Assembly: GCA_013821825.1 (NCBI GenBank)
Contig: PNJK01000021.1
Span: 1 to 51,006 of the forward strand
Length of the DNA: 51,006 nt
Direction of reading: 5' to 3'
Origin: Rhodobacter sp.
Lineage (GTDB): Bacteria; Pseudomonadota; Alphaproteobacteria; Rhodobacterales; Rhodobacteraceae
In this document: piece by piece, positions 5,349-30,393 of the stretch
How the letters are laid out: each line of letters starts with the position of its first letter
Numbering within the stretch: the first letter of the stretch is position 1
Program-made: the position numbers and the translations under genes
The notes under the pieces: model-generated
What the model was told of the DNA's origin: nothing
Databases searched by the model: none
Seen by the model: only the letters and a program-made list of their open reading frames with translations

Positions 5349-5807
5349 ATGACCGTTTGCTTCACGACCGAAAGGATGCTGCACTTTGGCGATTGCGACA
5401 TTTCCGGCACGGCCTATTACCCGGCTTACCTCAACATTCTGAACGGGGTGGTTGAGGAGTTCTGGGCCCATCTTGGCTGGCCCTGGCATGAGATCATCTG
5501 GAAGGAGCGCTGGGGAACGCCAACGGTGCATCTGTCCTGCGACTTCTCCAAGCCATCGTTCTTTGGCGACAAATTGACTTTTCAGTTGACCGTGACGAAG
5601 GTGGGGAAATCCTCGGTGGGGCTGAAGCATGCGATTCACTGTGGGGACGAGCATCGCTGGTCGGTGACGCAGGTGCTGGCCGCAAGCTGGCTGGACAAGC
5701 ACACATCGATGCCGTGGCCTGCTGATGTAAAGGCCAAGCTGGAAAGCCTGATGGCACCGGATGCACCCGAGCGGCGGCCGGTTGGCGGGCCTCAACCCCA
5801 GGCCTGA
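5349..5807 (+). CDS. Acyl-CoA thioesterase, 4HBT hotdog family
   Basis: The 152-residue protein has the hotdog-fold 4-hydroxybenzoyl-CoA thioesterase signature FGDCDISGTAYYPAYLNI near residues 14-31, with the catalytic aspartate in the CD pair and the tyrosine-rich helix start. It hydrolyses an acyl- or aroyl-CoA to the free acid. GGGGAGG upstream of the ATG at 5349 supports the start. Its 3' end overlaps the convergent ABC ATPase gene by 16 bases. A second, related thioesterase lies at 29582 in the CoA-pathway cluster. Substrate is unknown. Confidence 0.8.
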   Translation: MTVCFTTERMLHFGDCDISGTAYYPAYLNILNGVVEEFWAHLGWPWHEIIWKERWGTPTVHLSCDFSKPSFFGDKLTFQLTVTKVGKSSVGLKHAIHCGDEHRWSVTQVLAASWLDKHTSMPWPADVKAKLESLMAPDAPERRPVGGPQPQA

Positions 5808-6592
5808 GCCGGGTCGGGAAGCGGGATCGCCTCCAAGAGCTCACGCGTGTAGGCGGCCTTGGGAGTTGCGAACAACTCGGCGGTGGGGCGGTCTTCGACG
5901 ATCAGGCCCTGGTGCAGCACGATGGTGCGCTGGCACAGTCGGCGGATCACCGACAGGTCATGGCTGATGAAGGCCAGCGTCAGGCCGAGGTCGGCCACCA
6001 GCCGTTCCAGAAGGTTAAGCACCTGCGCCTGCGATGAGACGTCAAGACCCGAGACGATCTCGTCGGCCAGGATGAAATCAGGCTCCAGCGCGATGGCACG
6101 GGCGATGCCGACGCGCTGGCGCTGACCGCCGGACAGTTCATGCGGGTAACGGGCGGCGAAATGCTGCGGCAGGCCGACATGATCCAGCGCGCGGGCGACG
6201 CGACCGGGGATGGCGTCCAGCCCGTGCAGTCGCATTGGCTCGGCGATGATGGTGCCGACCCGATGACGCGGGTTCAGCGAGGACATCGGATCCTGAAAGA
6301 TCATCTGAAACCGCCGCCGCATCGGGCGCAAGGCTGTTTCTGACAGGTGGGTGATATCGGAGCCGTCAAAGCCGATCGCACCGCGCGACGGCTCCAGCAG
6401 CCGGACCAGCGCGCGGCCAAGCGTTGACTTGCCGGATCCCGAGCCGCCAACGATGCCCACCACCGCCCCTTTCGGGATGGTGAAGGAAAGACCCTTCAGA
6501 ATCTCGATCCGCGGGGCCGTGCCGAAGATGGGTTTCGCGGTCATGTCGGCCAGCGAAAGGCGCAGATCGGCAACAGTGTAGAGGTCAGCCAT
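5792..6592 (-). CDS. ABC importer ATPase, OppF/DppF type
   Basis: The 266-residue protein has Walker A GGSGSGKST (about 49-57), Q-loop FQDPMSSLNPRH, signature LSGGQRQRVGIARA, Walker B FILADEIVSGLD and the switch histidine in FISHDLSV. The usual Pro after ADE is Ile here. It is the second nucleotide-binding subunit of a peptide/opine/nickel-type importer and energises substrate uptake from the cytoplasmic side. It is the last gene of a minus-strand operon and overlaps the upstream ATPase gene by eight bases. It lacks the C-terminal oligopeptide extension of longer OppF proteins. Confidence 0.9.
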   Translation of the reverse strand: MADLYTVADLRLSLADMTAKPIFGTAPRIEILKGLSFTIPKGAVVGIVGGSGSGKSTLGRALVRLLEPSRGAIGFDGSDITHLSETALRPMRRRFQMIFQDPMSSLNPRHRVGTIIAEPMRLHGLDAIPGRVARALDHVGLPQHFAARYPHELSGGQRQRVGIARAIALEPDFILADEIVSGLDVSSQAQVLNLLERLVADLGLTLAFISHDLSVIRRLCQRTIVLHQGLIVEDRPTAELFATPKAAYTRELLEAIPLPDPAQAWG

Positions 6593-7469
6593 GGGTTTTC
6601 ACCCCCTTGGCCAAGGTCCTGTCGAAGGCGGCAACCTCGGCCCGGACTGCGTCGATCACTGCGTCGGGCACGGGATGGAGGCCTGCGTCGGGATCAGTAT
6701 ATTTCGGCGTAGCGGCCAGCAGAGCGGCGGAATAGGGGTGACGGGGGGAAGCGAAGAAATCGGCCACGGTGCTGTCTTCGACCACCAACCCGGAATAGAG
6801 CACCGACAACTGCTGGCAGACTTTGGAGACGACACCAAGGTCATGCGTGACAAACAACAGTGCCGTGCCGTGGCGGGCCTGCATCCCGGCAATCAGCCGC
6901 AGGATCTGCTTTTGCACCGTCACATCCAGCGCGGTCGTGGGTTCATCGGCCACGATCAGCTTTGGCTCGGCCGCGAAGGCGGATGCGATCAGGATGCGCT
7001 GGCGCATGCCTCCCGACAGCTCATGCGGATATGACCGCAGCACCCGGGCAGGATCGGCAATCTGCACCTCGGTCAAAAGATCGCGGGCGCGGGCGTCGGC
7101 GGCGGCACGGGTCCAGCCCAGGATATCGACCAGCCGGTCGGTGATCTGCGGCCCGATCCGGTGGCTGGGGTTCAGCGCGGTCAGCGGGTCTTGCGGGATC
7201 AGCGCGCAACTTGCGCCGATCCGACGACGGCTTTCCTTTGCGGGCAGGCTCAGAAGGTCGGTGCCGTCCAGCAGGATTTCGCCTTCGGTGATCTGGACCG
7301 AGGGCGGCAGGATACCGAGCACAGCCTTGCCGATCATCGACTTGCCAGCCCCGCTTTCGCCGACAAGGCCTCGCACCTCCCCCGGCGCCACGTCCAGCGA
7401 CACACGGCGGAGCAGGGCCGGTCCGTTCTTCAGCCGGACCGACAGGTTGCGGATCGCGAGAAAGCTCAT
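6585..7469 (-). CDS. ABC importer ATPase, OppD/DppD type
   Basis: The 294-residue protein has Walker A GESGAGKS (about 37-44), Q-loop LIPQDPLTALNPSH, signature LSGGMRQRILIASA, Walker B LIVADEPTTALD and the switch FVTHDLGVV. It pairs with the downstream ATPase to drive the importer. Start ATG overlaps the permease stop by four bases, and its own 3' end overlaps the next ATPase gene, so the importer subunits are translationally coupled. The D-type is recognised by the GESGAGKS/ALIPQDP pattern. Substrate cannot be read from this subunit. Confidence 0.9.
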   Translation of the reverse strand: MSFLAIRNLSVRLKNGPALLRRVSLDVAPGEVRGLVGESGAGKSMIGKAVLGILPPSVQITEGEILLDGTDLLSLPAKESRRRIGASCALIPQDPLTALNPSHRIGPQITDRLVDILGWTRAAADARARDLLTEVQIADPARVLRSYPHELSGGMRQRILIASAFAAEPKLIVADEPTTALDVTVQKQILRLIAGMQARHGTALLFVTHDLGVVSKVCQQLSVLYSGLVVEDSTVADFFASPRHPYSAALLAATPKYTDPDAGLHPVPDAVIDAVRAEVAAFDRTLAKGVKTHG

Positions 7470-8332
7470 CGCAGCACCGGATCAAAGCGGTCCTTCAGCC
7501 CTTCGCCAAGCTGGCTGAAGGCAAGGACCGTCAGGAAAAGCGCAATCAGCGGGAAGACCAGCACCCACCACGCCTGATAAATCGAAGTGCGGCCTTCCGA
7601 GATCATCCCGCCCCAGGTGGGATCGTCGGTCGAGATGGACAGATTCACGAAGCTCAGGATTGCCTCCACGATTACGGCGATGCCCATTTCCAGCGTCAGA
7701 AGCACTACGACGGTAGGCAGGACATTGGGCAGGATTTCCCGCAGCATCGTGCCAATCCGCCCGCGACCCGCCACCCGGGCCGAAGCGACATAATCCATCG
7801 CTCCCTGCGCCATGGCTTCGGCCCGCACGACGCGGGCAAAACGGGTCCAGTCGATCACCACGATGGCAATGATGATCGAGGTCAGGCTGGGGCCAAGCAC
7901 TGCGATGAGCAGGATGGAAAAGAGGACGGGCGGAAAGGCCATCCAGATATCGATCAGCCGCGAGATGACCATATCGACCCAGCCGCGCAGGAATCCGGCC
8001 AGAAGGCCGAATGTCGCCCCGATCAGGCAGGTGATGCCGCCAGCCACCAGCGCCACAAGCAATGCCACCCGCGCCCCGTGCAGGATGCGCGACAGGACAT
8101 CGCGGCCAAGGCTGTCGGTGCCCAACAGGTAACCCGGCTCGGTCCCGGCCACCCAGAAAGGCGGCAAGCGGGCCAGGAACAGATCCTGCGTCAAGGGATC
8201 CCGCGGCGAGATCCATGGCGCGAGAAGCGCTGCCAGCACAAGCGCCGCAAGCCAGAGCGCAGACAGCCAAAGCCGCAACCCGGCCCGGCGACGGAGCATG
8301 GACCGCCCATCCAATCCCTTGGCGTCAAGCAT
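7466..8332 (-). CDS. ABC importer permease, DppC type
   Basis: The 288-residue membrane protein begins with a cytoplasmic leader, a first membrane span (LWLSALWLAALVLAALLAPW) and then the DppC motif DSLGRDVLSRILHGARVALLVALV. The binding-protein-dependent transport EAA-type loop is visible as YVASARVAGRGRIGTMLREILPNVLP. About six spans are predicted by eye. It forms the inner-membrane channel with the DppB-type partner, whose gene overlaps it by eight bases. The N-terminal OppC motif and the conserved IDIWMAFPPVLFSI segment support the call. Confidence 0.9.
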   Translation of the reverse strand: MLDAKGLDGRSMLRRRAGLRLWLSALWLAALVLAALLAPWISPRDPLTQDLFLARLPPFWVAGTEPGYLLGTDSLGRDVLSRILHGARVALLVALVAGGITCLIGATFGLLAGFLRGWVDMVISRLIDIWMAFPPVLFSILLIAVLGPSLTSIIIAIVVIDWTRFARVVRAEAMAQGAMDYVASARVAGRGRIGTMLREILPNVLPTVVVLLTLEMGIAVIVEAILSFVNLSISTDDPTWGGMISEGRTSIYQAWWVLVFPLIALFLTVLAFSQLGEGLKDRFDPVLR

Positions 8333-9335
8333 GGCGCAGCCGCGGGTTCAGGACGGCGTAAGCGAGATCCACGATCAGGTTCACGGCCGTGAAGATGACC
8401 GCAAACAGGATGACGATGCCCTGGATCAGCGGCAGATCGCGGTTGATCACGGCGTCGATGGCCATGTTGCCGAGACCTTCGTAGGAAAACAGCCGCTCGA
8501 TGATCACCGTGCCGCCGATCAGAAAGGTGAACTGCACGCCGACCAGTGTCAGTGTGGGCAGAACCGCGTTGCGAAGCGCTTCGCGCAGGATCACATGCGT
8601 CTCGCCATACCCTTTGGTGCGGGCCAGCGTGACGTAATCAAGGTTCATGGTTTCCTTCAGGCTTTGCTTCAGAAGCTGGCCGATCACCGCGGCAAGCGGG
8701 ATGGCAAGCGCAAGCGCGGGCATGAACATATGCGCGACAAGATCGGCCCAGAGATCGAAGCGCAGTCGGACAAGGCTTTCGAACAGATAGAAATTGGTGA
8801 CGAAAGGCAGATCCAGCGACGGCGTCACCCGGCCCGAGATGTGGAACACCGGAAAAAGCACCCCAAGAACCAGCATCAGCACCAGCCCCCAAAGGAAGTC
8901 CGGCACTGAAAGCGCCATGCCGTTAGCCACGTCGACCGCGCCTTCCGTGCGGGTGCCGCGCCCGCGCGTGCCGATCAGTGCCGCCGCCCCGCCGATGATC
9001 ACCGCCATCACCAGCGCCATGATCGAAAGCTCCAACGTAGCTGGCAGCCGCCCCAGCACCAGATCCAGCACCGGCTGGCGCGTGGTGATCGAGGTGCCGA
9101 AATCCCCCTGCACCACCCCTCCAAGCCAGATGCCGAACTGGGTGACCAAAGGCTGGTCCAACCCGTAAAGCGCGGAAAGCCGGGCAATATCCGCCTCGGT
9201 CGCACCGGGAGGAAGCATCATGGCGATGGGATTGCCGGGAACCACCCGGATCACGAAGAACACGATCACCGCAACGCCCGCCAGGGTGACGAGCGTGGTC
9301 AGCAATCGCAGAATGGTCAGGCGAAGGATCTGCAT
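8325..9335 (-). CDS. ABC importer permease, DppB type
   Basis: The 336-residue protein starts MQILRLTILRLLTTL and has a first membrane span, the DppB periplasmic motif VVPGNPIAMMLPPGA, and further spans. The EAA loop reads YVTLARTKGYGETHVILREA. An upstream in-frame ATG would add 24 residues with no similarity and would read through the repeat hairpin, so 9335 is preferred. It pairs with the DppC-type subunit. A hairpin-plus-conserved-tail repeat separates it from the binding-protein gene upstream, which may lower permease expression relative to the binding protein. Confidence 0.9.
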   Translation of the reverse strand: MQILRLTILRLLTTLVTLAGVAVIVFFVIRVVPGNPIAMMLPPGATEADIARLSALYGLDQPLVTQFGIWLGGVVQGDFGTSITTRQPVLDLVLGRLPATLELSIMALVMAVIIGGAAALIGTRGRGTRTEGAVDVANGMALSVPDFLWGLVLMLVLGVLFPVFHISGRVTPSLDLPFVTNFYLFESLVRLRFDLWADLVAHMFMPALALAIPLAAVIGQLLKQSLKETMNLDYVTLARTKGYGETHVILREALRNAVLPTLTLVGVQFTFLIGGTVIIERLFSYEGLGNMAIDAVINRDLPLIQGIVILFAVIFTAVNLIVDLAYAVLNPRLRHA

Positions 9336-9439: not shown

Positions 9440-10963
9440 TCAGGCCCGCTTCATCAGATGCGGCAGCAGCGCGCCCGAAGCATGTGGCGTCACCACGACG
9501 CCCGGCGCGTGCAGGATCGGCTGGACATATTGCAGAAGCGGAATGACCAGCGCGTTCTCGGCGATATACTTGTCCACCGCCTTCCAGCCCTCGATCCGCT
9601 TCGCCTCATCCGCCTCGCCCCACAAGGGGCCGATCATGCCGATCAGGTCATCGCCATCCCAGACCGAATGGGGCGAGGGGCCGAACATCGCAAAGCCGGT
9701 CGAGGTGGTCGGGTCGCCCACCGAATTGCCCCAGTTGTAGAAGGCGGCGGGGGCAAGCTGGTCGGCAGCGCGGAGTTCGTAGTGCTTGGCGATCTCGTAG
9801 ACCTCGATTTCCGCCTCGATCCCGACCTTGCGCCACAGGCCGACGATGGCCTGTACCATCTCGTAATCCTTGGGCTTGAAGCCCTTGGTGGTCTGGATCT
9901 TGAACTTCACCGGGTTGTCGGGCCCGTAGCCGCTGGCTGCCAGAAGTTCGATCGCCTTGGCCTCGTCATAGGGGACGGTGATGCTGGCGTCATAGGCGTC
10001 GTATTCGGGCGTCTGGAGGGTGTCGATCTTGACCCCGTAGCCCGACAGAAGCCGGTCGATGATCGCCTGCTTGTCGATGGCATGGGCCGCGGCCTTGCGG
10101 ACATTGGGGTCGGTCATCGCCTCGATATCGTTGAGGAAGATCATCCCGATGTCCGAGATGGGTGCCGCCACCCCTGCCAGTGGGCCGCCTTTCAGTCGGT
10201 CATATTCTTCATACGGCATTTCCAGAGTGACGTGAGAGTTGCCGGATTCCACCTCGGCTACCCGGGCGGCGGCGTCGGGGACGAACTTGATCGTCACCGT
10301 GTCGAAATCAGGCTTGCCGCCCCAGTAGTTCGCGTTCGCCTTGAGCCGCACAAAGGCGTTGCGCTCGAACTTTTCGACCATGTAGGGGCCGGTGCCGATG
10401 GGGGCGGCCTCAAAACCCTCGGCGCCGACCTTTTCGTAATAGACCTTGGGCAGGACGTAGCCGGTCAGGAAATACATCCATTTGAAGATTGTCGGATCGA
10501 ACTGGGCCACATCGGCGATGACCTTGTTGCCCTCGACGCGGTGGTTGGCGAGGGTTCCCCAGACGAACTGGATCGGGCTTCCGGTCTCCGGATTGGCCAC
10601 CCGGGCCAGGTTCCAGGCCACATCCTCGGCGGTGAAGGGCGAGCCGTCGTGCCATGTCACCCCCTCGCGCACGGTCATCCAGACCTGCTTTTTGTCGTCC
10701 GACCAGCCCCATTCGGTCAAAAGGCCCGGGGCAGGGGTCAGGTCGGGCTGTTGCAGGATGTACTGGTCAAACACCGACTGGTAGAGGCCCTGGATCGTCG
10801 GGTTCACAGCACTCGGTCCGACAGTCGGGTCCCATGACGGCAGGTTGACGTTATAGGCGATCACCAGTTCGTCGATGGCCTGCGCGAAGGTCGGCAGACC
10901 GATGGTGCCTGCCGCCATGGTGGCGGCTGACAGCTTCAGCAGGCTTCTGCGGTTGAGGTTCAT
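9440..10963 (-). CDS. ABC importer periplasmic substrate-binding protein, SBP family 5
   Basis: The 507-residue protein has a Tat-type signal (RRSLLKLSAAT) with a probable cleavage after FAQA near residue 29. The family-5 solute-binding body follows, with FTAEDVAWNLARV, IGTGPYMVEKFERN and ANANYWGGKPDFDTVTIKF. It captures the substrate of the adjacent importer in the periplasm; the family binds peptides, opines, nickel and various small ligands, so the ligand is open. It lies 33 bases downstream of the FAD oxidoreductase gene, so that enzyme and the importer are probably one operon and may share a substrate. Confidence 0.9.
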   Translation of the reverse strand: MNLNRRSLLKLSAATMAAGTIGLPTFAQAIDELVIAYNVNLPSWDPTVGPSAVNPTIQGLYQSVFDQYILQQPDLTPAPGLLTEWGWSDDKKQVWMTVREGVTWHDGSPFTAEDVAWNLARVANPETGSPIQFVWGTLANHRVEGNKVIADVAQFDPTIFKWMYFLTGYVLPKVYYEKVGAEGFEAAPIGTGPYMVEKFERNAFVRLKANANYWGGKPDFDTVTIKFVPDAAARVAEVESGNSHVTLEMPYEEYDRLKGGPLAGVAAPISDIGMIFLNDIEAMTDPNVRKAAAHAIDKQAIIDRLLSGYGVKIDTLQTPEYDAYDASITVPYDEAKAIELLAASGYGPDNPVKFKIQTTKGFKPKDYEMVQAIVGLWRKVGIEAEIEVYEIAKHYELRAADQLAPAAFYNWGNSVGDPTTSTGFAMFGPSPHSVWDGDDLIGMIGPLWGEADEAKRIEGWKAVDKYIAENALVIPLLQYVQPILHAPGVVVTPHASGALLPHLMKRA

Positions 10964-10996: not shown

Positions 10997-12565
10997 TCAG
11001 TTTCCGGCAAGTTTCCGGGCCAGCAGATAACCCGACCCCGCCCCGGTCCCCGCGCCGGGCCAGACGGCGGCTCCGGTCAGGTGCAGGTTCGCAATGGGTG
11101 TGCTGCCGTCGGCATGGCCCCGGGCGGGGCGGAACAGGAAGTGCTGCGACAGATGGTGGCTGCCGCAGACCTGATCGCCGCCAACCAGATTGGGGTTGTC
11201 GGCCTCAAGTTCTGCGGGCGTGACGATCCGGCGCGCAAGGATCTTGTCCTTTGTGCCCGGCGCATGGGCCTCAAGAATCGCCAGCGCCCGGTCGGCAAAG
11301 GGTTCGGCGGCTGTTTCCCAGTCCTTTGCGGCGATTTCGCCCTTGGCGTCGCCGGTAATGGTCCCGGGGGCCATGCGGATCTGCACCCAAAGCACATGCT
11401 TGCCATCCGGCGCGCGGCTGGGGTCAAAGACGGTGGGCTGGCCGACCACGAGGATCGGCTCGTCCGGCAACAGCCCGGCCTTGGCCTGTTGGTAGGTGCG
11501 GGCCATCTGGTCAAGGCTGGGGGCGATGTGGACATAGGCATGCTGCTGCAGGGCCTTGCCCGCGCGCCACTCGGGCAGGGCATCCATCGCGAGGTGGATC
11601 ATCATCGTGCCGGGCGCGTGGCGGAAGCTGGCCATTGCGCCGTCAAACTCTGGAGTGGTGCTGCCGGTCAGATGCCGCAGGGCGCCGGGGGCGACACCTG
11701 CAATGACCGCACGGCTGGCCAAGATGTGGCGACCGTCTGCAAGCCTTAACCCGCTTGCACGGCCCTGGTCCTGCGTTATCCGGGCCACCTTAGCCCCGGT
11801 TTCCACCACCCCGCCGCGCGCCGTAATCGCCGCGATCATCGAGCGCGTCACCGTATCCGCCCCGCCTTGCCCGATCACCATCCCGAAGGCCTGTCCCGCC
11901 ATCCCCTCCAGATAGGGAAACATGGCTCCGCCCGCGACATCGGGCGCAAAATCCAGATGCATCCCCCAGGCCCCCAGCATGGCGCGGACATGGGGATGAG
12001 CAAAGGTCTGTTCCAGCCAGGCGCGGGGCGAGGCGAGCAGGAACCGCCCCATGTCCAGCGTAGCGCCAACGCCCTTGGCCCGCAGCGTCCTGAACAGGAA
12101 ATATGCAAGTGCACGGAGTTTCATTTCCGACCCAAGGAGGCCGAAAAGATGCGGTGCCTCGGCCCCGAAGCCAGCGCATAGGGTTTTCCAGGTTGCCGCA
12201 TCTTCGGCAGAGTGCGCGCTGATTGCGGCCAGGGTTTCGGCCATGTCCGTCGAGACACCGGCCCAGCTGCCATCAGGGAAGGATGACCCAAACGGCCGGT
12301 TCACGGGGACAAATGCGCAGCCATGGCTGGTCAGTTCGGCACCGTAGGTCTTGAAAAACGGGCTTCCGGCAAAGAGCGACAGGTTCATTGCCGCCCAGTC
12401 ATGGCGGAAACCCGGCAGGGTGTATTCGCCGGTCTTGACCGCACCGCCCGGCACCGGGGCCTGTTCGAACAGCCCTACGCGCCAGCCCTTCGCCGCAAGG
12501 TGCATCGCAGCGGCCAACGCATTGTGGCCCGTCCCGATCAGGACAGCATCGAACTCCGCAGCCAT
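10997..12565 (-). CDS. FAD-dependent oxidoreductase, phytoene-desaturase/PYROXD2-like (paralogue 1)
   Basis: The 522-residue protein begins with a Rossmann FAD motif (LIGTGHNALAAAMHLAAKG), then LFEQAPVPGGAVKTGEYT and PGFRHDWAAMNLSLF, and ends with the second flavin segment TGAAVWPGAGTGAGSGYLLA. This is the layout of the phytoene-dehydrogenase-like NAD(P)/FAD oxidoreductases. I chose the ATG at 12565 because AGGGGA precedes it and the FAD motif follows immediately; an upstream ATG at 12619 lies inside the regulatory palindromes. It is the first gene of the importer operon and is divergent from its paralogue's operon. A desaturation or oxidation of the imported compound is inferred; the substrate is unknown. 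Confidence 0.85.
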   Translation of the reverse strand: MAAEFDAVLIGTGHNALAAAMHLAAKGWRVGLFEQAPVPGGAVKTGEYTLPGFRHDWAAMNLSLFAGSPFFKTYGAELTSHGCAFVPVNRPFGSSFPDGSWAGVSTDMAETLAAISAHSAEDAATWKTLCAGFGAEAPHLFGLLGSEMKLRALAYFLFRTLRAKGVGATLDMGRFLLASPRAWLEQTFAHPHVRAMLGAWGMHLDFAPDVAGGAMFPYLEGMAGQAFGMVIGQGGADTVTRSMIAAITARGGVVETGAKVARITQDQGRASGLRLADGRHILASRAVIAGVAPGALRHLTGSTTPEFDGAMASFRHAPGTMMIHLAMDALPEWRAGKALQQHAYVHIAPSLDQMARTYQQAKAGLLPDEPILVVGQPTVFDPSRAPDGKHVLWVQIRMAPGTITGDAKGEIAAKDWETAAEPFADRALAILEAHAPGTKDKILARRIVTPAELEADNPNLVGGDQVCGSHHLSQHFLFRPARGHADGSTPIANLHLTGAAVWPGAGTGAGSGYLLARKLAGN

Positions 12566-12586: not shown

Positions 12587-12630
12587 GACAGATTGCCGCA
12601 GTGATATTTGCAAATGCATTTAAATCTGTC
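12587..12630. promoter_or_regulatory. Divergent operator region with nested palindromes
   Basis: The 142-bp gap between the two divergent operons holds a cluster of perfect palindromes: ATTTGCAAAT (12606-12615), AAATGCATTT (12612-12621) and ATTTAAAT (12618-12625). These are flanked by an 8-bp inverted repeat GACAGATT (12587-12594) and AATCTGTC (12623-12630). This is markedly AT-rich against its surroundings. Size and symmetry suit a MarR dimer, and a MarR gene is third in the rightward operon. Binding is inferred, not shown. Confidence 0.65.
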
Positions 12631-12707
12631 TAGTGTGATTCTGGGGTCGCCGGGTCAACCGGCGCAGGGATCAATGCCGGGATGCTCCGGCCAACAGGGA
12701 GATGAGA

Positions 12708-20434: not shown

Positions 20435-20941
20435 ATGGACTGGCATTGGCATATGGCTGAAAGCGCGGTCGAGGTGGACACGACCGAACTGGAATTCACC
20501 CTGATGCGGACGTTCGAGGGATTCGGTCGCTGACAATCGGAGTGTCTTGCTTCGGTCTGCGATCTGGCGGCGACGGGACCGGAGAATGCGCTATTGCACA
20601 TCATCCGCATGAATGACCGACCGAAGACGATCAAGGATCTGGCACGTCTGACCAACCGGGACAACGTGCCGAACATCCAGTATTCGCTGCGCAAATTGAT
20701 CGGTGCGGGGCTGGTGCTGCGCAAGGGCGCCGGGCGGTCGGGCTTGACCTATGAAGTCACCGAGGAAGGCCGGCAGGTGACGGATGACTACGGCGCGCTT
20801 CGGCGGCGGCTCTTGTCGGAGGCGATGGCCAATGTGCCGGGCTTTTCCGAACGGCTGGCCGAGGCGACGCGCACGCTGGATATGCTGTCCGGGATATGCG
20901 AGGAAATCTCGCGGGTGGCGGCCACCCACCGTCGCGCCTGA
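20435..20941 (+). pseudogene. MarR-like winged-helix regulator interrupted by in-frame TGA
   Basis: From ATG 20435 the frame reads MDWHWHMAESAVEVDTTELE to FEGFGR, meets TGA at 20531-20533, and continues in the same frame as QSECLASVCDLAATGPENAL. The winged helix follows: TIKDLARLTNRDNVPNIQ, then YSLRKLIGAGLVLRK and GLTYEVTEEGRQVTD. The join is collinear, so TGA most simply replaces TGG (Trp). A truncated product could initiate at TTG 20594 and would still carry the DNA-binding domain. It is divergent from the decayed LLM monooxygenase and may have controlled it. Both neighbours being damaged suggests shared decay. Confidence 0.78.
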
Positions 20942-22137: not shown

Positions 22138-23246
22138 CGGGTCAGATCCGGAGCTGGCAGATAGCGGCCCTTCAGATGGGGCGGCGCTGCGGTTTCAAGG
22201 GCGGCAAGGGTGGAAAGCACCGCGCCGCGTCCGTGGCGGGCCAGCATGGCAAAGGGGCCGCGCGGGAAGTTCAGCCCCAGCCGAAGCGCGGTGTCGATGC
22301 CGTCCGCCGTGCATCCGCCCTCGGCCAGAAGCCAGGCCGCCTCGTTCACCAAAGTGGCTTCGATCCGAAGAACCACGGCTTCGGCATCAGCAGGCGAAGG
22401 CGGGGCGGGGCCGGGAAAGACAAAGCCTCGGCCAGTCTTGCGGCCCAGATCGCCGCGCGCGACCTGCGCCTTCAGCGCGGCGAACACATGATAGCGCGGA
22501 TGGTTCCCCATCGCGGCGGCAAGGCTTTCGGTGGCGGCAAGGTTGACGTCTGCGCCAATCAGGTCAATCAGGCCGAAGGGGCCAATCGGGTATCCGGCGC
22601 GCGTCGTCGCGGCGTCGATGTCGGCCGCCGAACGGCCCTCCTCCAGCATCGCCAGCGCCTCGCCGTAATAGGGTCGCGCACAGCGGTTGACGATGAAGCC
22701 GGGTCGGTCGGCGCATTGGATCACCGTCTTGCCCGCGCGTTCCGTCAAGCTGCGGGCCCGTTCAAGCGCATCGGACGCGGTGGTGGCATGCGGGATCAGT
22801 TCAACCAATCGCATTGCAGGGGCGGGGTTGAAGAAGTGCAGGCCCAACAGCCTTTCGGGCCCTGCCAGCCCCTTTGCGATAGCGGCGACCGACAGGGACG
22901 ACGTGTTGGTTGCAAGGACGGCATCGGGTGGCAAAACCGGCTCCAGCGCCGCGAAAACCGCATGCTTTACCGGCAGCCTTTCGACCACCGCCTCGATCAC
23001 CAGATCGGCGGGGGAGATGTCTTCGATCCGTTCCACGACCCGCAAACGGTCAAGGATCGCATCACGGGTGTCAGCCGTCATCGCGCCCTTGGCCACACGG
23101 GTGCCAAGCGATTGGGCAAGGCGAGTGGCGGCGCTGGCCCGCGCCTCGGGCTGGGCATCCGTGGCGCGGACAATATGGCCCGCCTGCGCATAGACCTGCG
23201 CGATGCCAAGGCCCATAGCCCCCAAGCCGATGATCCCTATGGTCAT
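22134..23246 (-). CDS. 3-hydroxyacyl-CoA dehydrogenase, PaaH-like
   Basis: The 370-residue protein has an NAD Rossmann start IGIIGLGAMGLGIAQVYAQAG-type motif, ATNTSSLSV, and the catalytic segment GLHFFNPAPAMRLVEL with His in HFFNP. Both C-terminal helical domains follow (GFIVNRCARPYYGEAL, GRGFVFPGPAPP). It oxidises a 3-hydroxyacyl-CoA to the 3-oxoacyl-CoA for the adjacent thiolase. Its start overlaps the stop of the upstream hydratase gene and its end overlaps the thiolase start, each by four bases. Confidence 0.9.
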   Translation of the reverse strand: MTIGIIGLGAMGLGIAQVYAQAGHIVRATDAQPEARASAATRLAQSLGTRVAKGAMTADTRDAILDRLRVVERIEDISPADLVIEAVVERLPVKHAVFAALEPVLPPDAVLATNTSSLSVAAIAKGLAGPERLLGLHFFNPAPAMRLVELIPHATTASDALERARSLTERAGKTVIQCADRPGFIVNRCARPYYGEALAMLEEGRSAADIDAATTRAGYPIGPFGLIDLIGADVNLAATESLAAAMGNHPRYHVFAALKAQVARGDLGRKTGRGFVFPGPAPPSPADAEAVVLRIEATLVNEAAWLLAEGGCTADGIDTALRLGLNFPRGPFAMLARHGRGAVLSTLAALETAAPPHLKGRYLPAPDLTR

Positions 23247-23998
23247 TTTCCCCGAAACTCCGGCTTGCGGCGTTCGCGGAAGGCGCGGATGCCTTCGGTC
23301 TTGTCTTCGGTGTCAAGCAAGGTTTCGAAGGCCCGACGTTCCGCCTCCAGCGCCAATGCCCTTTCCTCGCCCGCCAGCAGGGCTGCCTTGGCGGCCATCA
23401 GTGCCAGCGGTGCCCGACCGGCCAGACCCGCAGCCAGCGGCTCGGCAAACTCAAGCGCCGGACCTTCCGCCAAGTATGAGCCGATGCCCCAGTCAAACGC
23501 AATGGTCGCGTCGATCATCTCGCCGGTCAGGACCATCCGCATCGCCCGCGCACGACCCGCCAGCGCCATCAGCCGTTGCCCGCCACCCGCGCCGGGGATC
23601 AGCCCAAGGTTGGTTTCCGGCAGCCCCAGCCGGGCCGTCGGCCCAAGGACCATGAGGTCCGCCATCAGCGCGAGTTCCAGCCCACCCCCCAGCGCGAAGC
23701 CGTCGACAGCAGCAACCAGAGGCTTGGGAAAGGCCCGGATCGCGGCCCAATGCGCCTTGCGCGGGTCTGAGGCGCCCTCGACTGCTGACTTCGCCTCGAT
23801 CTCGGCGATGTCGGCCCCGGCGGCGAAGTTCCCTTCGGCCCCGGTCAACACCGCGACACGCACTGCGGGGTCACTGGCACAGTCGGTCAGGGCCCGCGCC
23901 ACCTGCCCCAGAAGCGACGTGTTCAGCGCATTCTTTTGCGCCGGGCGGTTGAGGGTGAGGCGGGTCCACCCGGCCATATGGTCGATGATCAGATCCAT
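23243..23998 (-). CDS. Enoyl-CoA hydratase/isomerase (crotonase)
   Basis: The 251-residue crotonase has the oxyanion-hole segments [15 protein letters not shown] and [17 protein letters not shown], and retains both hydratase glutamates (GGGLELA and [15 protein letters not shown]). It hydrates an enoyl-CoA for the neighbouring dehydrogenase. I chose ATG 23998, where homology starts; the longer open frame from 24094 would translate the operator-like AT-rich sequence. It is divergent from the monooxygenase/reductase gene, with 120 bp between the two start codons. Confidence 0.88.
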
Positions 23999-24025: not shown

Positions 24026-24058
24026 AATTTCAAGCCAGAAAATTTTAAGCTTGAAATT
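24026..24058. promoter_or_regulatory. MarR-type operator candidate between divergent CoA-pathway operons
   Basis: AATTTTAAGCTTGAAATT (24041-24058) is an 18-bp palindrome with one mismatch. A half-site AATTTCAAG lies at 24026-24034 and forms a perfect 9-bp inverted repeat with CTTGAAATT. The segment is strikingly AT-rich within GC-rich DNA and lies between two divergent start codons. The MarR gene at 27141 is in the rightward operon, so autoregulated control of both operons is plausible. The ligand is probably an aryl-CoA; that is inference. Confidence 0.65.
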
Positions 24059-24118: not shown

Positions 24119-26404
24119 ATGAAGATACTTTGTCTGGGCGGCGGTCCCGCTGGTCTTTACTTTGCCATCTCGATGAAGTTGCGTGACCCCGGGCATCAGG
24201 TCACTGTCCTGGAACGCAACCGCGCCAATGACACTTTTGGCTGGGGGGTGGTGCTGTCGGATGACGCGCTCATGCGGATGGAACGGAACGATCCCGTCTC
24301 CACCAAGTCGATCCGGGACCATTTCGCCTATTGGGACGATATTGCTGTCGTGCATGATGGGGTGCGCACGGTCTCGGGCGGGCATGGCTTTGCCGGGATC
24401 GGAAGGAAGCAGATGCTTATCCTGCTGCAGGCCCGCGCCCGCGAACTGGGCGTCGACCTGCGGTTCGAGACCGAGTTCGCCAAGGCCGAGGACTACCGCC
24501 GTGACTACGATGTCGTCGTAGCCTCCGACGGCATCAACTCTGCCGTGCGGCGCGAGTATGAGACCGTCTTTCAGCCTGACATCGACCTGCGTCTGTGCAA
24601 GTTCGTCTGGCTTGGCACGCATCAGAAGTTCGACGACGCCTTCACATTCATCTTCGAGAAGACCGGGCATGGCTGGCTTTGGGCGCATGTCTACCAATTC
24701 GATGCCAACACCGCGACCTTCATCGTCGAATGCACGCAACAGACCTGGGACAACTGGGGTTTTGCCGACATGTCCAAGGAGGACACGGTTGAAACCTGCC
24801 GCAAGATCTTTGAACGCCATCTGGGCGGGCATGAGCTGATCTCGAACGCGGCGCATCTGCGCGGCTCGGCGGTCTGGATGAGCTTTCCGCGCGTGGTCTG
24901 CGGCAAGTGGTATCATGAAAACGTGGTGCTGATGGGCGATGCTGCGGCGACAGGGCATTTCTCTATCGGTTCCGGCACCCGGCTGGCCTTTGACAGCGCG
25001 ATTGCGCTGGCCGAATACCTGCACAGCGAACCGACGCTGGAGGCTGCCTTCGCCCGCTATCAGGACGAACGCCGGGTCGAGGTGCTGCGCCTGCAATCCG
25101 CTGCCCGCAACTCGCTGGAGTGGTTCGAGCAGGTGGAGCGTTATCTGGACCTGCCCCCCGAACAGTTCGCCTATTCACTTTTGACCCGCAGCCAGCGGAT
25201 CAGCCATGAAAACCTGCGCCTGCGCGATCCTGAATGGCTGGGCCGGACCGAAGACTGGTTCCAGCGTCAGGCGGGTGGGCAACCGGGCCGAAAGCCGATG
25301 TTCGCGCCGTTCCGCTTGCGGGACATGGCATTGAAGAACCGGGTCGTGGTGTCGCCGATGGCACAGTACAAGGCCGTGGATGGCTGTCCGACCGACTGGC
25401 ATCTGGTCCATTACGGCGAACGCGCCAAGGGTGGGGCCGGACTGGTCTACACCGAAATGACCTGCACCTCGGCGCAAGGTCGGATCAGCCCCGGTTGTCC
25501 GGGTCTATACGCCCCGGAGCATGAGGCGGCGTGGAAGCGGGTGGTCGATTTCGTCCATGCCGAGACGGATGCGAAGATTTGCTGCCAGATCGGCCACGCC
25601 GGCCGCAAGGCCAGCACCCAACTCGGCTGGGAGGAAGGCGATGCCCCGCTCGCATCAGGCAACTGGGAAATCATCGCGCCATCGCCCCTGCCATGGTCGC
25701 CGCGCAACGCCACCCCGCATGCGATGACGCGGGCAGACATGGACGCGGTAACAGCGGAATTCGCGGCCGCAACCCGGATGGCGCGAAGTGCGGGCTTTGA
25801 CATGATCGAACTTCATGCGGCCCATGGTTATCTGATCTCGTCCTTCATAAGCCCAAAATCGAACATTCGGACCGATGAGTTCGGTGGCAGCCTGGAAAAC
25901 CGCATGCGCTGGCCGCTGGACGTGTTGCAGGCCATGCGCGCCGAATGGGGTGAGCAAAAGCCGATCTCGGTCCGCATCAGTGCGACCGACTGGGTTGGCG
26001 ATGAGGGGGTGACCCCGGATGAAGCCGTGCTGATCGCGCAGATGTTTGCCGGGGCGGGGGCCGACATCATCGACGTCTCGGCGGGTCAGACCTCGACGGA
26101 TGCCCGGCCGGTCTATGGGCGGATGTTCCAGACGCCGTTCAGCGACCGCATCCGCAACGAGGCGGGCATCGCCACCATGGCCGTCGGCAACATCACCGAG
26201 CCGGACCACGTGAACTCGATCATCCTGGCCGGTCGTGCCGATCTGGTCTGCCTTGCGCGGCCGCATCTGGCGAACCCCTACTGGACCCTTCACGCAGCCG
26301 TGGCGATGGAGGATGCTGCGACGGAATGGCCGCTGCCGTATCTGGCTGGGCGGGACCAGATGCGGCGGTTGCAGCAGAAGACGGCAGAGGCGATCCGGGC
26401 ATGA
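24119..26404 (+). CDS. 2-aminobenzoyl-CoA monooxygenase/reductase-type fusion
   Basis: The 761-residue protein fuses two enzymes. Residues 1-390 are an FAD monooxygenase like salicylyl-CoA 5-hydroxylase ([48 protein letters not shown]). Residues about 400-761 are an old-yellow-enzyme FMN/NADH domain ([64 protein letters not shown]). This layout and length match the Azoarcus evansii enzyme that hydroxylates and then reduces the ring of 2-aminobenzoyl-CoA. Neighbouring beta-oxidation, MarR, thioesterase and RidA genes fit that pathway. A salicylyl-CoA-type substrate cannot be excluded. Confidence 0.86.
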
Positions 26405-27144
26405 ACGTGGAAGGGCGGCGGGTTCTGGTCACGGGTGGCGGGTCGGGCGCAGGGGCAGACCTCGCGATCGGCTTTGCCCGCGCGGGTGCCGCGAAGGTGG
26501 TGATCTGCGGTCGCCGTCCTGCCGCGCTTGCGGATGTGGCGGCGCGGCATCCGGCGATCCGTGCGCTGCCCTGCGACGTGACCGACGAAGCCTCGGTCCA
26601 AGGTCTTTTCGCCCAGGCCGGAAAAGTGGAGATCGTCATTGCCAATGCAGGGCAGGCCGACAGCGCGCCCTTTGCCAGGACCACGCTGGCGCAGTGGAAC
26701 GCGATGCTGGCGGTAAACCTGACCGGGGTCTTCCTGACTTTCCGCGAAGGGTTGCGGCAGTTTGACGGCTGGGGGCGGCTGATTGCGGTCTCTTCGACCG
26801 CCGGCTTGAAGGGCTATGCCAAGGTCGCGCCCTATGCTGCGGCCAAGCACGGCGTGATGGGGATCGTCCGCTCGCTGGCGCTGGAAGTGGCGCGGGGGCC
26901 AGTGACGGTCAATGCGATCTGTCCGGGGTTTCTTGATACCGAAATGACCGAGCACTCGGTCAAGGTGATTTCAGAAAAGACCGGGCGCACCCTGGCCGAG
27001 GCCCGGGCAGCACTGGAAGCAATGAGCCCGCAGAACCGGCTTTATCGCCCCGACGAAGTAACCTCGGCTGCCCTCTGGCTTTGCTCGGCGGGGTCCGAGG
27101 GGGTAAACGGTCAGGGCATCAGCATCTCGGGCGGCGAGGCATGA
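26401..27144 (+). CDS. SDR-family oxidoreductase, 3-hydroxyacyl-CoA dehydrogenase-like
   Basis: The 247-residue short-chain dehydrogenase has the cofactor motif [27 protein letters not shown] (the NNAG-equivalent), the catalytic [21 protein letters not shown] (Ser, Tyr, Lys) and an [10 protein letters not shown] segment. The cofactor loop GRRP suggests NADP(H) or NAD(H) without a clear preference. ATG 26401 overlaps the fusion gene's stop, so it is translationally coupled to the ring-reducing enzyme and probably oxidises or reduces a ring hydroxyl/oxo group of its product. The reaction is inferred. Confidence 0.87.
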
Positions 27145-27575
27145 CCGATCCCCTCTCCAAGCGCAGGCTGAAGATGTGGGTCCGCCTTCTGGGCGTGACC
27201 CGGATGGCCGAGGGCCACCTGCGCGAATTCCTGCGGGTTGAGCACCAGACGACCTTGCCGCGCTTCGACGTGATGGCCGCCCTCTACCGCCGCCGCGACG
27301 GTGTGACGATGAGCGAACTTTCCCGCATGCTCCTGGTCTCGAACGGCAACGCGACCACGGTGGTTGACCGGCTGGAAAAGGATGGGCTTGTCCGCCGCAC
27401 CCCGTCCGAGACGGACAGGCGCACGGTCTTTGTCGCACTGACTCCGGCCGGTCTGGCACAGTTCGAGGGGCTTGCCGCCGGGCATGAGGCGGAAGTGTCG
27501 GACCTTTTCGCCAAACTGTCCGAGGCCGATCTGGATGCCTTGACCGACATCCTCAAGCGTATGGGAGGCACATGA
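27141..27575 (+). CDS. MarR-family transcriptional regulator
   Basis: The 144-residue protein has the MarR core: [14 protein letters not shown], the helix-turn-helix [20 protein letters not shown]-type segment and the wing [20 protein letters not shown]. It is within the CoA-pathway operon, overlapping both neighbours by four bases, and is the obvious candidate to bind the palindrome at 24041-24058. Regulators of this type next to aryl-CoA pathways commonly respond to the CoA-thioester intermediate. The start at 27141 is preferred over upstream in-frame ATGs because of the ATGA overlap. Confidence 0.9.
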
Positions 27576-28387
27576 TGACCAAGCTTGCCGGGCTGACGGC
27601 CCAGCATTTCCTGTGGCAGGTGACCGACCGGATCGCCACCATCCGCCTGAACCGGCCCGACCGGAAGAACCCCCTGACTTTCGACAGCTACGCCGAGCTG
27701 CGCGACACCTTCCGCGCACTGGCCTATGCTTCGGATGTGGATGTGGTGATCCTTGGCTCCAATGGCGGCAATTTCTGCTCGGGCGGGGACGTGCATGACA
27801 TCATCGGCCCGCTGGTCGGGATGGAGATGAAGGAACTGCTGGCGTTCACCCGGATGACCGGGGATCTTGTCAAGGCGATGATCGGCTGCGGCAAGCCGGT
27901 GATTGCGGCGGTGGATGGCGTCTGCGTCGGCGCCGGGGCGATCATGGCCATGGCCTCCGACCTGCGGCTGGCCACGCCCGCGGCGAAATGCGCCTTCCTG
28001 TTCACCCGCGTCGGGCTGGCGGGCTGCGACATGGGCGCCTGTGCGATGCTGCCCCGCATCATCGGGCAGGGCAGGGCGGCAGAGTTGCTTTACACCGGCC
28101 GTGTGATGCGGGCCGAGGAAGGGGAACGCTGGGGTTTCTGGAACAGCCTCCTCGCGCCCGAGGCGCTGGAGGACGCAGTGCTGACGCTGGCGCGGCAATT
28201 GGCAGCGGGTCCGACCTTCGCGCATGGCATCACCAAGACCCAGATCAATCAGGAATGGAACATGGGGCTGGAGCAGGCGATTGAGGCCGAGGCTCAGGCA
28301 CAGGCGATCTGCATGCAGACCCGCGACTTCGAGCGCGCCTATCGCGCCTTTGTGGCCAAGCAAACGCCCGTGTTTCAGGGTGACTGA
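27572..28387 (+). CDS. Crotonase-superfamily protein lacking hydratase glutamates
   Basis: The 271-residue protein has the crotonase fold with [14 protein letters not shown], the oxyanion-hole block [13 protein letters not shown] and [20 protein letters not shown]. The two glutamates used by enoyl-CoA hydratases are absent: the first position is in AGAIMAM instead of GGGxEL, and the second region reads [16 protein letters not shown] rather than PExxLG. It is therefore unlikely to be an ordinary hydratase. A ring-opening hydrolase, dehydratase or deaminating step on the reduced 2-aminobenzoyl-CoA ring is possible. It follows MarR with a four-base overlap. Confidence 0.83.
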
Positions 28388-28440: not shown

Positions 28441-28448
28441 GTGAATGC

Positions 28449-29585
28449 ATGGGCGACCGGACCTTTCTTGACTGGCCCTTCTTCGAGCCGCGCCACCGCG
28501 ACCTCGCCGGAGCACTTGATGACTGGTGCGCCGCGCATCTGCCGGTGGACCATGCGGACGTGGATGCCGCCTGCCGAAAGCTGGTGGCCTTGCTGGGCGC
28601 GGACGGCTGGCTGCGCCATTCCGGCGCGGGCGAGGCCGAGCGGCTGGATGTGCGCACCCTCTGTCTGATCCGGGAAACGCTGGCCCGGCATGAAGGGCTG
28701 GCAGATTTCGCTTTTGCGATGCAGGGGCTGGGCATGGGGGCCGTCAGCCTGTTCGGCTCGCCCGAGCAGCGCGAATGGCTGGACCGCACGCGCGTTGGCA
28801 CGGCGATTTCCGCCTTTGCGCTGACCGAGCCAGAATCGGGGTCGGACGTGGCCGCCATAGCCACGACGGCGAAGCGGGTGCAGGGCGGCTGGCTGATCGA
28901 AGGCGAGAAGACCTGGATTTCCAACGGCGGAATTGCCGATGTCTACGTGATCTTCGCCCGCACCGGAGAGGCGCCGGGCGCCAAGGGACTGTCCGCCTTC
29001 CTGATGCCCGCCGACGTGCCGGGGCTGGAGATTGCCGAACGGCTGGAGGTGGTCGCCCCGCATCCCCTTGCCCGGCTGAGACTGTCGGGCGTCGTGTTGC
29101 CCGAAGGTGCCTTGATCGGGCGTCCGGGCGATGGGTTCAAGCTGGCAATGTCGGTGCTGGACGTGTTCCGGTCAACCGTCGGCGCGGCGGCCCTTGGCTT
29201 TGCCCGCCGGGCGCTGGACGAAACGCTTACCAGGGTCAAGGCGCGGCGGATTCAGGGGCAGGCGCTGGCCGAATTGCAGCTGGTGCAGGGTCACCTGGCC
29301 GACATGGCCTTGAAGATCGACGCGGCGGCGCTGCTGGTCTACCGCGCCGCCTGGGTGAAGGATTCCGGGGCCGCGCGTGTCACGCGCGAGGCGGCGATGG
29401 CCAAGCTTTACGCTACCGAGGCCGCGCAGGAGGTGATCGACATGGCCGTGCAGCTGCATGGCGGCGACGGCGTGCGCCACGGCTCGGTGGTAGAAAGCCT
29501 GTACCGCGAGATCCGGGCGCTCCGGATCTATGAGGGGGCGTCCGACGTCCAGCGCGTCGTCATCGCGCGAAGCGTGCTGGGATGA
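28449..29585 (+). CDS. Acyl-CoA dehydrogenase
   Basis: The 378-residue flavoenzyme has the ACAD blocks [46 protein letters not shown], a C-terminal [15 protein letters not shown] and [17 protein letters not shown]. The last block holds the catalytic Glu. It introduces a 2,3-double bond into an acyl-CoA, here probably a ring-derived or opened-chain intermediate; electrons go to ETF. It starts eight bases after the repeat element and overlaps the thioesterase gene by four bases. At 378 residues it is a standard short ACAD and too short to be DmdC. Confidence 0.9.
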
Positions 29586-29989
29586 GCTACGCACGCCAGA
29601 TCCGGGTGGAATTCAACCACTGCGACCCAGCAGGGATCGTCTTCTACCCCCGCTATTTCGAGATGACGAACTCGATCTGCGAGAACTTTTTCCGCGAGGT
29701 GGTGGGCTATTCGTTCCATGCCATGATGGCGGATGGGGTCGGCGTGCCGACAGCGCGGATCGAGACGGACTTCCGCGCGCCCTCACGGCTTGGCGATGTG
29801 CTGGACTGGTGCCTTGTGGTCGAAAAACTGGGCGGCAGTTCCGCGACCTTCCGTCTGGAGACGCTCTGCGGAAACGACCATCGGTTGACCGCGTGGCTGA
29901 CCCTTGTCTGGCTGTCGCCCGAACAGCGGCCCGGCCGCTGGCCCGACCCTGTTCGTGCGGCACTTGCTGCGCATCTGGAGGAAGCATGA
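29582..29989 (+). CDS. Acyl-CoA thioesterase, 4HBT hotdog family
   Basis: The 135-residue hotdog protein has the signature [20 protein letters not shown] (residues about 9-28) with catalytic Asp in HCDPAG. This motif is typical of 4-hydroxybenzoyl-CoA thioesterase and relatives. In 2-aminobenzoyl-CoA and other aryl-CoA clusters such enzymes release CoA from dead-end thioesters. It overlaps the ACAD gene and the RidA gene by four bases each, placing it firmly in the pathway operon. It shares the fold but little sequence with the thioesterase at 5349. Confidence 0.87.
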
Positions 29990-30393
29990 CCGACACCGGC
30001 TTGCAGGTTCTGCACCCTTCGCACTGGAAACCCACCATCGGCTATTCCAATGGCGTCGCTGCGACCGGGCGCATGGTCTTTACCGGCGGGATGATCGGCT
30101 GGAACGCCGATCAGGAATTCGAGACCGATGATTTCGTGGGGCAGGTGGAACAGGCCCTGCGCTCCATCGTCGAGGTTCTCGCCTGTGCCGGGGCCGGGCC
30201 GGAAAATCTTGTGAGGCTGACCTGGTATGTGACCGACAAGCGGGACTATCTTGGCAGCCTGAAAGACCTTGGCCGGGTCTACAAGGCGGTGATCGGGCGG
30301 CATTACCCTGCCATGGCGCTGGTGCAGGTGGTGGCGCTGGTCGAAGACCGGGCCAAGGTCGAGATCGAGGCGACGGCCGTGATCCCTGCCTGA
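29986..30393 (+). CDS. RidA-family protein, possible imine/enamine hydrolase
   Basis: The 135-residue protein is a RidA/YjgF member: YSNGVAATGRMVFTGGMIGW, VEQALRSIVEVLACAGAGPE, RLTWYVTDKRDYLG and VQVVALVEDRAKVEIEATAV. The Arg expected to bind carboxylates in archetypal RidA (R105, in the segment RVAVE or similar) is not in its usual context, so it may belong to a pathway-specific subgroup. RidA proteins release ammonia from imines and enamines, which is what a 2-amino-cyclohexenone-CoA pathway needs. It is the last gene of the rightward CoA operon. Confidence 0.85.
   Translation: MTDTGLQVLHPSHWKPTIGYSNGVAATGRMVFTGGMIGWNADQEFETDDFVGQVEQALRSIVEVLACAGAGPENLVRLTWYVTDKRDYLGSLKDLGRVYKAVIGRHYPAMALVQVVALVEDRAKVEIEATAVIPA

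Follow-up and report, generated by a model that had tools for sequence, protein, structure and literature searches.

A 51,006-nt stretch of DNA from Rhodobacter sp. (contig PNJK01000021.1, assembly GCA_013821825.1), here called the window, contains two neighbouring gene blocks, block 1 at 5349-19845 and block 2 at 20962-30393, that probably encode the catabolism of isatin. An isatin hydrolase would produce isatinate, the two-subunit oxidoreductase IorAB would convert isatinate to 2-aminobenzoyl-CoA, and a fusion enzyme of the 2-aminobenzoyl-CoA monooxygenase/reductase type (ABM) would act on the CoA ester together with enzymes of beta-oxidation. The substrate assigned to IorAB is the new part, and the cluster otherwise resembles known systems. 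The original prediction, made from the letters of the window, had joined these genes into a route for indolic or 2-aminoaromatic compounds. All of its gene calls were reproduced and its isatin reading is right, but its reading of IorAB as an arylpyruvate oxidoreductase should change, given that co-occurrence with isatin hydrolase, presence in the iad loci for auxin degradation and adjacency to ABM indicate isatinate.

In the proposed pathway, the ABC importer of block 1 would take up an oxindole-type precursor, and one or two CrtO-like flavoenzymes (FAD1 and FAD2) would oxidise it to isatin. The hydrolase would open isatin to isatinate (2-aminophenylglyoxylate). IorAB, a thiamine-diphosphate (TPP) and iron-sulphur enzyme, would then decarboxylate isatinate oxidatively and transfer the aminobenzoyl group to CoA, which is the new step. 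The 2-aminobenzoyl-CoA would pass to the ABM fusion of block 2, and breakdown would be completed by the beta-oxidation genes. Provided that IorAB forms the CoA thioester, the isatinate route can do without a ligase, such that entry into the 2-aminobenzoyl-CoA pathway is predicted to require no ATP-dependent anthranilate-CoA ligase.

A wider version of this proposal, for which we regard the chances as evenly balanced, is that the IorAB/IadAB clade comprises isatinate:acceptor oxidoreductases that form 2-aminobenzoyl-CoA, on which at least three routes would converge without a ligase, and that FAD2 is a dioxindole-to-isatin oxidase. The routes would start from indole-acetate (the iad genes), from indole (an indole monooxygenase, a short-chain dehydrogenase/reductase (SDR) and FAD2) and from an imported oxindole-type compound (the Opp importer, FAD1 and FAD2). 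One review (PMC6221969) raises the question of whether indole breakdown truly passes through isatin or whether isatin is a dead end, and of which genes make up the gentisate branch. The gene patterns make isatin a likely hub, and IadAB gains a concrete candidate reaction.

The isatin hydrolase

The gene described in the original prediction as an isatin-hydrolase-like cyclase encodes an orthologue of isatin hydrolase. Its closest solved relative is isatin hydrolase B (IHB) of Labrenzia aggregata (4j0n), and 203 of 261 residues (78%) are identical to those of the crystallised enzyme. The Mn ligands H75, H79 and D81 (HxxxHxD) are conserved, and H85, D200, H214, W65, W67 and W86 also align with catalytic His/Asp and substrate Trp residues of isatin hydrolase A (IHA), for which residue roles have been described (PMC6117287). 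At the positions of IHA Gln219, a residue characteristic of the A type, and Tyr204, the window enzyme has Ala and Phe, the same as IHB. It is the sole PF04199 match of the window genome at E<=0.001. Given this strong homology, the enzyme is predicted to open isatin to isatinate. No gene context is given for the Labrenzia hydrolases A and B in the available part of PMC6117287.

IorAB and its co-occurrence with the hydrolase

The window IorAB has the features of an IorAB-type 2-oxoacid:acceptor oxidoreductase, with a TPP-binding C-domain, a POR domain and iron-sulphur cysteines in a CxxCxxC...CP pattern; a sequence search found no solved structure related to IorA. Because IorAB co-occurs with isatin hydrolase, sits in iad loci and adjoins ABM, we infer that its substrate is isatinate, and since isatinate is a 2-oxoacid, IorAB most likely decarboxylates it oxidatively to give 2-aminobenzoyl-CoA, the substrate of ABM, directly. 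Phenylglyoxylate:acceptor oxidoreductase, which forms benzoyl-CoA, provides a precedent with the same chemistry (arylglyoxylate + CoA -> aroyl-CoA + CO2), although its subunit make-up differs from that of the two-subunit IorA/IorB enzyme. No statement of the proposed IorAB reaction was found in the literature on isatin or isatinate and aminobenzoyl-CoA, of which coverage was partial.

Gene identities, conservation and co-occurrence can be read from sequence. Co-occurrence was counted in a family sample of 149 genomes, each of a different genus, and in a phylum sample of 299 genomes. With cut-offs of E<=1e-30 for the hydrolase (A or B) and at least 64% identity for the IorA clade, the hydrolase is found in 29 of the 149 family genomes and the IorA clade in 29; the two sets are identical, and none of the other 120 genomes holds either. 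The IorA cut was set after the list was known and the tree agrees with it, in that 36 rows including the window form the IorA clade with 100/100 support and six rows of 51-56% identity form a separate one. Nine family genomes with a distant IorA only (five at 53-54%, four at about 30%) have no hydrolase match and were kept outside the clade. In the phylum sample, with cut-offs of E<=1e-40 and at least 60%, the hydrolase is found in 17 genomes, the IorA clade in 18 and both in 16; four genomes with only a 52-54% IorA form were left uncounted. The Fisher values, which treat related genomes as independent, are 1.6e-31 and 2e-23.

A scan of one genome per species gave 337 relatives, and the best 80 of the 337 were taken as loci, a sample that leans to close relatives and partly overlaps the family genome sample. 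When the window proteins were mapped on the 63 loci whose downstream sequence reaches 6.5 kb or more (17 were excluded for short flanks), iorA and iorB were found downstream of the hydrolase in 62, marR in 61 and fad2 in 58; L008 is the sole locus of the 63 without IorAB. Upstream, among the 59 of 80 loci with at least 7.5 kb, fad1 and oppF are present in 51 each and the binding protein in 50. The hydrolase-iorA arrangement exceeds chance. Minimal loci (L048, L051, L057, L064, L070 and L071) hold the hydrolase, marR and iorA, with neither the FAD enzymes nor the importer within 10 kb upstream; iorB is also present, save in L057 and L064, where the contig ends first. L037 has the minimal form too, but no marR match, and L035 and L065, both with little upstream sequence, resemble the minimal loci. 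Across the mapped locus set, no other conserved companion of the hydrolase could consume isatinate.

IorAB in auxin-degradation loci

The original prediction held that the combination of genes had not been described, which is only partly right, as the MarR-IorAB-isatin hydrolase core is also present in iad loci. In iad loci of Variovorax, Bradyrhizobium and Achromobacter, IadA and IadB are IorA and IorB and stand with a MarR gene, as in the window, and iorA/iorB are exclusive marker genes of such loci (PMC9613470); the available part of that paper gives no reaction for IadA/IadB. Compared with iad loci, block 1 lacks a Rieske oxygenase, a reductase, an AMP-ligase and any gene of the iadG/iadH type. 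It has instead an importer of the Opp type, a pair of CrtO-like flavoenzymes and an ABM cluster linked to it. An iadCDE Rieske-type system is absent from the Pfam calls of the block, and two Rieske alpha genes lie elsewhere in the window genome.

In the iad locus (L091) of G031, a genome of the window's own family, iorB-iorA-marR, a TRAP transporter gene and a second MarR gene are followed by genes for a reductase, Rieske alpha and beta subunits, an AMP-ligase, a thiolase, an OB/SDR protein, isatin hydrolase A (5nnb, 3.5e-149) and an SDR, in that order. The same iad genes were found in G027 (L092) by tblastn. IorA of the two loci is 79-80% identical to the window IorA and belongs to the same clade. 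The MarR beside iorA in L091 is 62% identical to the block 1 MarR of the window, and the thioesterase beside marR-iorAB in both loci is 67-68% identical to the window thioesterase at 5349-5807. In G148 the system lies in three places, as a stand-alone marR-iorAB (L097), an importer/FAD/hydrolase locus without IorAB (L098) and an iad locus without IorAB (L101); a single IorAB may serve both the isatin cluster and the iad locus in this genome.

A preprint assigned the conversion of indole-acetate to anthranilate to iadC-K2 and called IadI a possible broad-specificity amidase (PMC12633357). Compounds of formula C8H7NO3 and C7H7NO strongly accumulate only in strains that overexpress iadC-K2 (PMC12633357), and the former formula is that of isatinic acid (PMC8383072). 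We read C7H7NO as aminobenzaldehyde. To judge from the gene names, iadA/B would be among the deleted genes and not on the segment used for complementation, and the accumulation of both compounds fits with consumption of isatinate by IadAB. On our reading, IadI would be isatin hydrolase A and IadAB would consume isatinate. The name iad is also used for a Pseudomonas cluster that adjoins catechol genes and is apparently a different iad (PMC8383072).

The ABM block and its link to IorAB

Block 2 contains the 2-aminobenzoyl-CoA monooxygenase/reductase-type pathway that the original prediction had placed about 1.6 kb beyond the hydrolase operon. The ABM fusion exceeds the cut-off of NF006101 (1266 bits against 1078); this model is named for salicylyl-CoA 5-hydroxylase/oxidoreductase, and therefore does not settle the substrate. 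The 2-aminobenzoyl-CoA pathway of Aromatoleum/Azoarcus and of Cupriavidus SHE also has the ABM fusion and beta-oxidation genes, and includes a 2-aminobenzoate-CoA ligase (PMC6221969), whereas the window operon lacks a ligase gene and the window genome lacks a close relative of one.

The proposed association of the two blocks holds at the level of the genome, but physical linkage is not general. The ABM cut-offs were E<=1e-150 in the family sample (the counts include G055 and G139, whose identity is 47-48%, and G142, which is partial) and E<=1e-120 in the phylum sample. Of the 29 hydrolase-positive family genomes, 26 have ABM, against 28 of the other 120; in the phylum sample ABM is present in all 18 genomes with the IorA clade, against 24 of 281 others (p ~4e-11 and ~1e-17, respectively, with relatedness ignored). 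However, of the 26 family genomes with hydrolase and ABM, only 6 have ABM within 15 kb of IorA, where some contigs are short, and IorA is this close to 6 of 54 family ABM copies. Among the 55 loci with at least 9.5 kb downstream, ABM is found in 12, and any of ABM, dehydrogenase and thiolase in 18. In L013 and L045, ABM follows IorB after 92 bp on the same strand. Other arrangements with IorAB next to ABM occur in L149 and, outside the family but within the phylum, in L155 and L157.

Alternative readings and the ligase

It is quite improbable that IorAB is a classical arylpyruvate (indolepyruvate) oxidoreductase that forms arylacetyl-CoA and so feeds an indole-acetate type branch. IorB does score over the cut-off of the NCBIfam indolepyruvate oxidoreductase subunit beta family, and IorA does match TIGR03336, the indolepyruvate ferredoxin oxidoreductase equivalog, but at 288 bits it does not reach the curated cut-off of 651. 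No aminotransferase is found among the Pfam calls of the block, the minimal loci pair IorAB with isatin hydrolase and MarR, and IorAB is present in iad loci, where indole-acetate is oxidised directly (PMC12633357). Still less probable is that the two blocks are unrelated neighbours, as might be suggested by the infrequent linkage within 15 kb and by the different operator boxes; the association of ABM with the hydrolase and IorA across genomes of the family and the phylum, and the several distinct arrangements in which IorAB adjoins ABM, argue against it.

Rather unlikely, too, but a stronger competitor is a route in which isatinate goes to free anthranilate, by another or an unassisted reaction, a 2-aminobenzoate-CoA ligase feeds ABM and IorAB catalyses another 2-oxoacid step. 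A ligase clade that scores around the TIGR02262 cut-off adjoins many ABM genes: 42 of the 54 family ABM copies have a ligase within 15 kb. By genome, the 28 of the family that carry ABM without the hydrolase all have the ligase, as do 23 of the 26 that carry both (not G000, G138 or G102). This count comprises 51 rows at 342-377 bits and a fragment near ABM in G119, which is therefore not ligase-free; higher-scoring TIGR02262 rows, none of which is within 15 kb of ABM, were taken to be another type of ligase and left out. The formation of anthranilate by iadC-K2 without iadA/B (PMC12633357) also favours this route. On the other hand, the window genome (97.9% complete) has no TIGR02262 match at E<=1e-100, and its best match to the ligase of a relative is 36%. 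After rid, where L082, L085 and L087 have an aryl-CoA ligase gene, the window has an enoyl-CoA hydratase gene on the opposite strand. In the phylum sample, a ligase lies within 15 kb of only 2 of the 12 ABM copies near IorA (within 15 kb), against 27 of 32 others (p=6e-5), which leaves 10 of the 12 without a nearby ligase, and the mapped loci offer no other conserved candidate for the consumption of isatinate. G368 contains ABM twice, once next to a ligase (C1) and once next to IorAB (C29).

Several results weigh against the proposal that IorAB acts on isatinate and supplies ABM. Besides the frequency of the ligase in the family, including genomes that have the hydrolase, the family ABM copies near IorA have a nearby ligase about as others do (4 of 6 against 38 of 48, p=0.6), and 6 of the 10 ligase-free phylum copies near IorA come from one genus. 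Strict replacement of the ligase by IorAB thus appears as a tendency in the phylum sample and fails in the family sample; a tendency, rather than a rule, is to be expected if free anthranilate is a further source in many strains. The missing ligases of G138 and G102 prove little, since the ABM contig of G138 stops 770 bp beyond rid and the G102 assembly consists of 870 contigs. In genome G062, 2.7 kb separate IorA from an aryl-CoA-ligase-type gene (G062:C1:196325-197782), which lies in a 911-aa frame and scores 475 bits against TIGR02262. In Variovorax, iadC-K2 alone restores anthranilate (PMC12633357), so isatinate can reach anthranilate without IadAB, which argues against an essential role of IadAB. 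The hydrolase of G380 stands without an IorA of the clade, and in G405 and G167, which carry the IorA clade, no hydrolase was matched; an ABM match is also missing from 3 of the 29 family genomes with hydrolase and IorA (G014, G028 and G108). In the three members compared from the sister IorA clade (51-56% identity), which is mostly in hydrolase-free genomes, the cysteines follow the same pattern, and therefore sequence features do not prove the substrate of IorAB. Finally, a common operator for both blocks is not supported, as the palindromes ATATTTGCAAATGCATTTAAAT and AATTTTAAGCTTGAAATT differ.

The members of the sister clade are L118-L122 and L124, and of their genomes only G167 also carries an isatin-type IorA. 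The hydrolase locus of G380 (L160), which is without the IorA clade, adjoins a molybdopterin oxidoreductase gene. Beyond block 2, the window has a zinc alcohol dehydrogenase gene and then a partial, possibly broken AMP-binding (acyl-CoA synthetase) frame (31810-34060). The acyl-CoA synthetase piece (32831-34060, minus strand) was considered as the absent ligase and rejected, given that it matches general acyl-CoA synthetase models only in part.

FAD enzymes and indole operons

FAD1 and FAD2 are 39% identical. A role for FAD2 is suggested by L156 (G439; 7128-13167) and L158 (G368; 1342-6636), where the genes for an isatin hydrolase and a FAD2 homologue line up with those for an SDR, a flavoprotein of the styrene/indole-monooxygenase type and a flavin reductase. 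The homologues, adjacent to the hydrolase, are 44-48% identical to FAD2 and 34-37% to FAD1. The G439 hydrolase is of the R. solanacearum type (3.6e-137), and the L156 monooxygenase matches 7z4x (4.9e-174), a Variovorax indole monooxygenase. Since the operon holds isatin hydrolase, the step lacking is a dioxindole oxidase that gives isatin, and FAD2, the candidate for it, probably oxidises dioxindole to isatin. In the iif route, a monooxygenase and an SDR lead to 3-hydroxyindolin-2-one, which IifA carries on to anthranilate (PMC6221969). L156 and L158 thus share the SDR, monooxygenase and flavin reductase with the iif/ind indole operons, and have them in line with the hydrolase and the FAD2 homologue. 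A search of the window genome for a styrene/indole monooxygenase-type IifC gave no PF17885 match, although the control is weak, as the control genomes have none either.

A gentisate-1,2-dioxygenase-type cupin (below the NCBIfam cut-off) and an FAA hydrolase lie beside IorAB-ABM in the same two genomes (L155, 610-2664; L157, 749-3255), and are candidate genes for the indole-to-gentisate route. Therefore, the fate of the CoA ester may differ in G439 and G368. Genes upstream of the L156 and L158 operons add nothing informative.

Importer and regulation

The solved relatives of the periplasmic binding protein bind dipeptides, heme, nickel or opines, and the protein is below the cut-off of all NCBIfam models listed. 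The palindrome ATATTTGCAAATGCATTTAAAT in the divergent promoter of block 1 has one match in the window, where none is expected, and is recognisable in 17 of 18 aligned divergent promoters (not in L018). Variants precede ihb in seven of nine loci that lack the FAD genes (not in L037 or L100). AATTTTAAGCTTGAAATT is conserved in all 15 aligned ABM promoters. The MarR proteins would bind these predicted operator-like boxes. One common inducer for both blocks is not indicated, because each block has its own MarR gene and the conserved palindromes differ; the two blocks are probably under separate control. The best solved relatives of the block 1 MarR are 3cjn and 7kym, and 7kfo, the auxin-binding MarR of Variovorax, is only a weak match (4.8e-6).

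Layout of the window

The importer operon, headed by a FAD enzyme, runs from 12619 to 5792 on the minus strand, and the divergent operon of hydrolase, second FAD enzyme, MarR and IorAB occupies 12702-19276, both as called in the original prediction (Table 1). The start of FAD1 is probably Met19 (12565), given that the longer start, at 12619, falls within the conserved box. The spacing of about 1.6 kb between the blocks, measured from the end of IorB to that of the thiolase on the opposite strand, is 1.69 kb, and it contains genes, which corrects the original prediction.

Table 1. Features of the two blocks and of the interval between them.
Feature	Position	Strand	Basis or remark
4HBT-type thioesterase	5349..5807	+	PF13279; convergent to oppF
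OppF, OppD, OppC and OppB-type ABC importer genes	5792..9335	-	PF00005, PF00528
Family-5 periplasmic substrate-binding protein	9440..10963	-	PF00496
FAD1, CrtO/phytoene-desaturase-like flavoenzyme	10997..12565	-	PF01593; NF045689 below cut-off
Operator-like box ATATTTGCAAATGCATTTAAAT, divergent promoter	12604..12625		single match in window
Isatin hydrolase B	12702..13499	+	4j0n match 3.1e-146
FAD2, CrtO-like flavoenzyme	13503..15068	+	profile matches; proposed dioxindole-to-isatin step
MarR regulator	15065..15553 (start ~15065)	+	PF12802
IorA-like subunit (TPP, Fe-S)	15555..17702	+	PF02775; TIGR03336 288 bits, below cut-off 651
IorB-like subunit	17699..19276	+	PF01558, PF20169; NF006179 over cut-off
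Flavin reductase, closes block 1	19342..19845	-	PF01613; convergent; also after iorB in close relatives
Luciferase-like monooxygenase remnant (C-terminal part)	19912..20382	-	PF00296 positions 178-312
Short winged-helix frame	20594..20941	+	
3-oxoadipyl-CoA-type thiolase	20962..22137	-	PF00108; NF006551 548 bits, below cut-off 605
3-hydroxyacyl-CoA dehydrogenase (PaaH-like)	22134..23246	-	PF02737
Enoyl-CoA hydratase (PaaF-like)	23243..23998	-	PF00378
Second palindrome AATTTTAAGCTTGAAATT, ABM promoter	24041..24058		operator-like, differs from ATATTTGCAAATGCATTTAAAT
ABM fusion, FAD monooxygenase + old yellow enzyme (OYE) reductase	24119..26404	+	PF01494 + PF00724
SDR dehydrogenase	26401..27144	+	PF00106
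Second MarR regulator, within ABM operon	27141..27575	+	PF01047
Enoyl-CoA hydratase family protein	27572..28387	+	NF006107 over cut-off
Acyl-CoA dehydrogenase	28449..29585	+	PF00441
4HBT thioesterase	29582..29989	+	PF13279
Rid-family protein	29986..30393	+	PF01042

The thioesterase gene at the outer end of the importer operon may belong to block 1; a gene of 80-94% identity is found beside oppF in 18 of 51 loci, and none was found there in the other 33. An open reading frame with an rve domain (4833-5795, minus strand) was rejected as a gene of the system, as almost half of its length overlaps the thioesterase gene in antisense, and the rve piece looks like a remnant. The luciferase-like monooxygenase, of which the window has only the remnant, is whole (363 aa) and near iorB, together with the flavin reductase, in L004, L012 and L089, and a homologue is present somewhere in 28 of the 80 loci.

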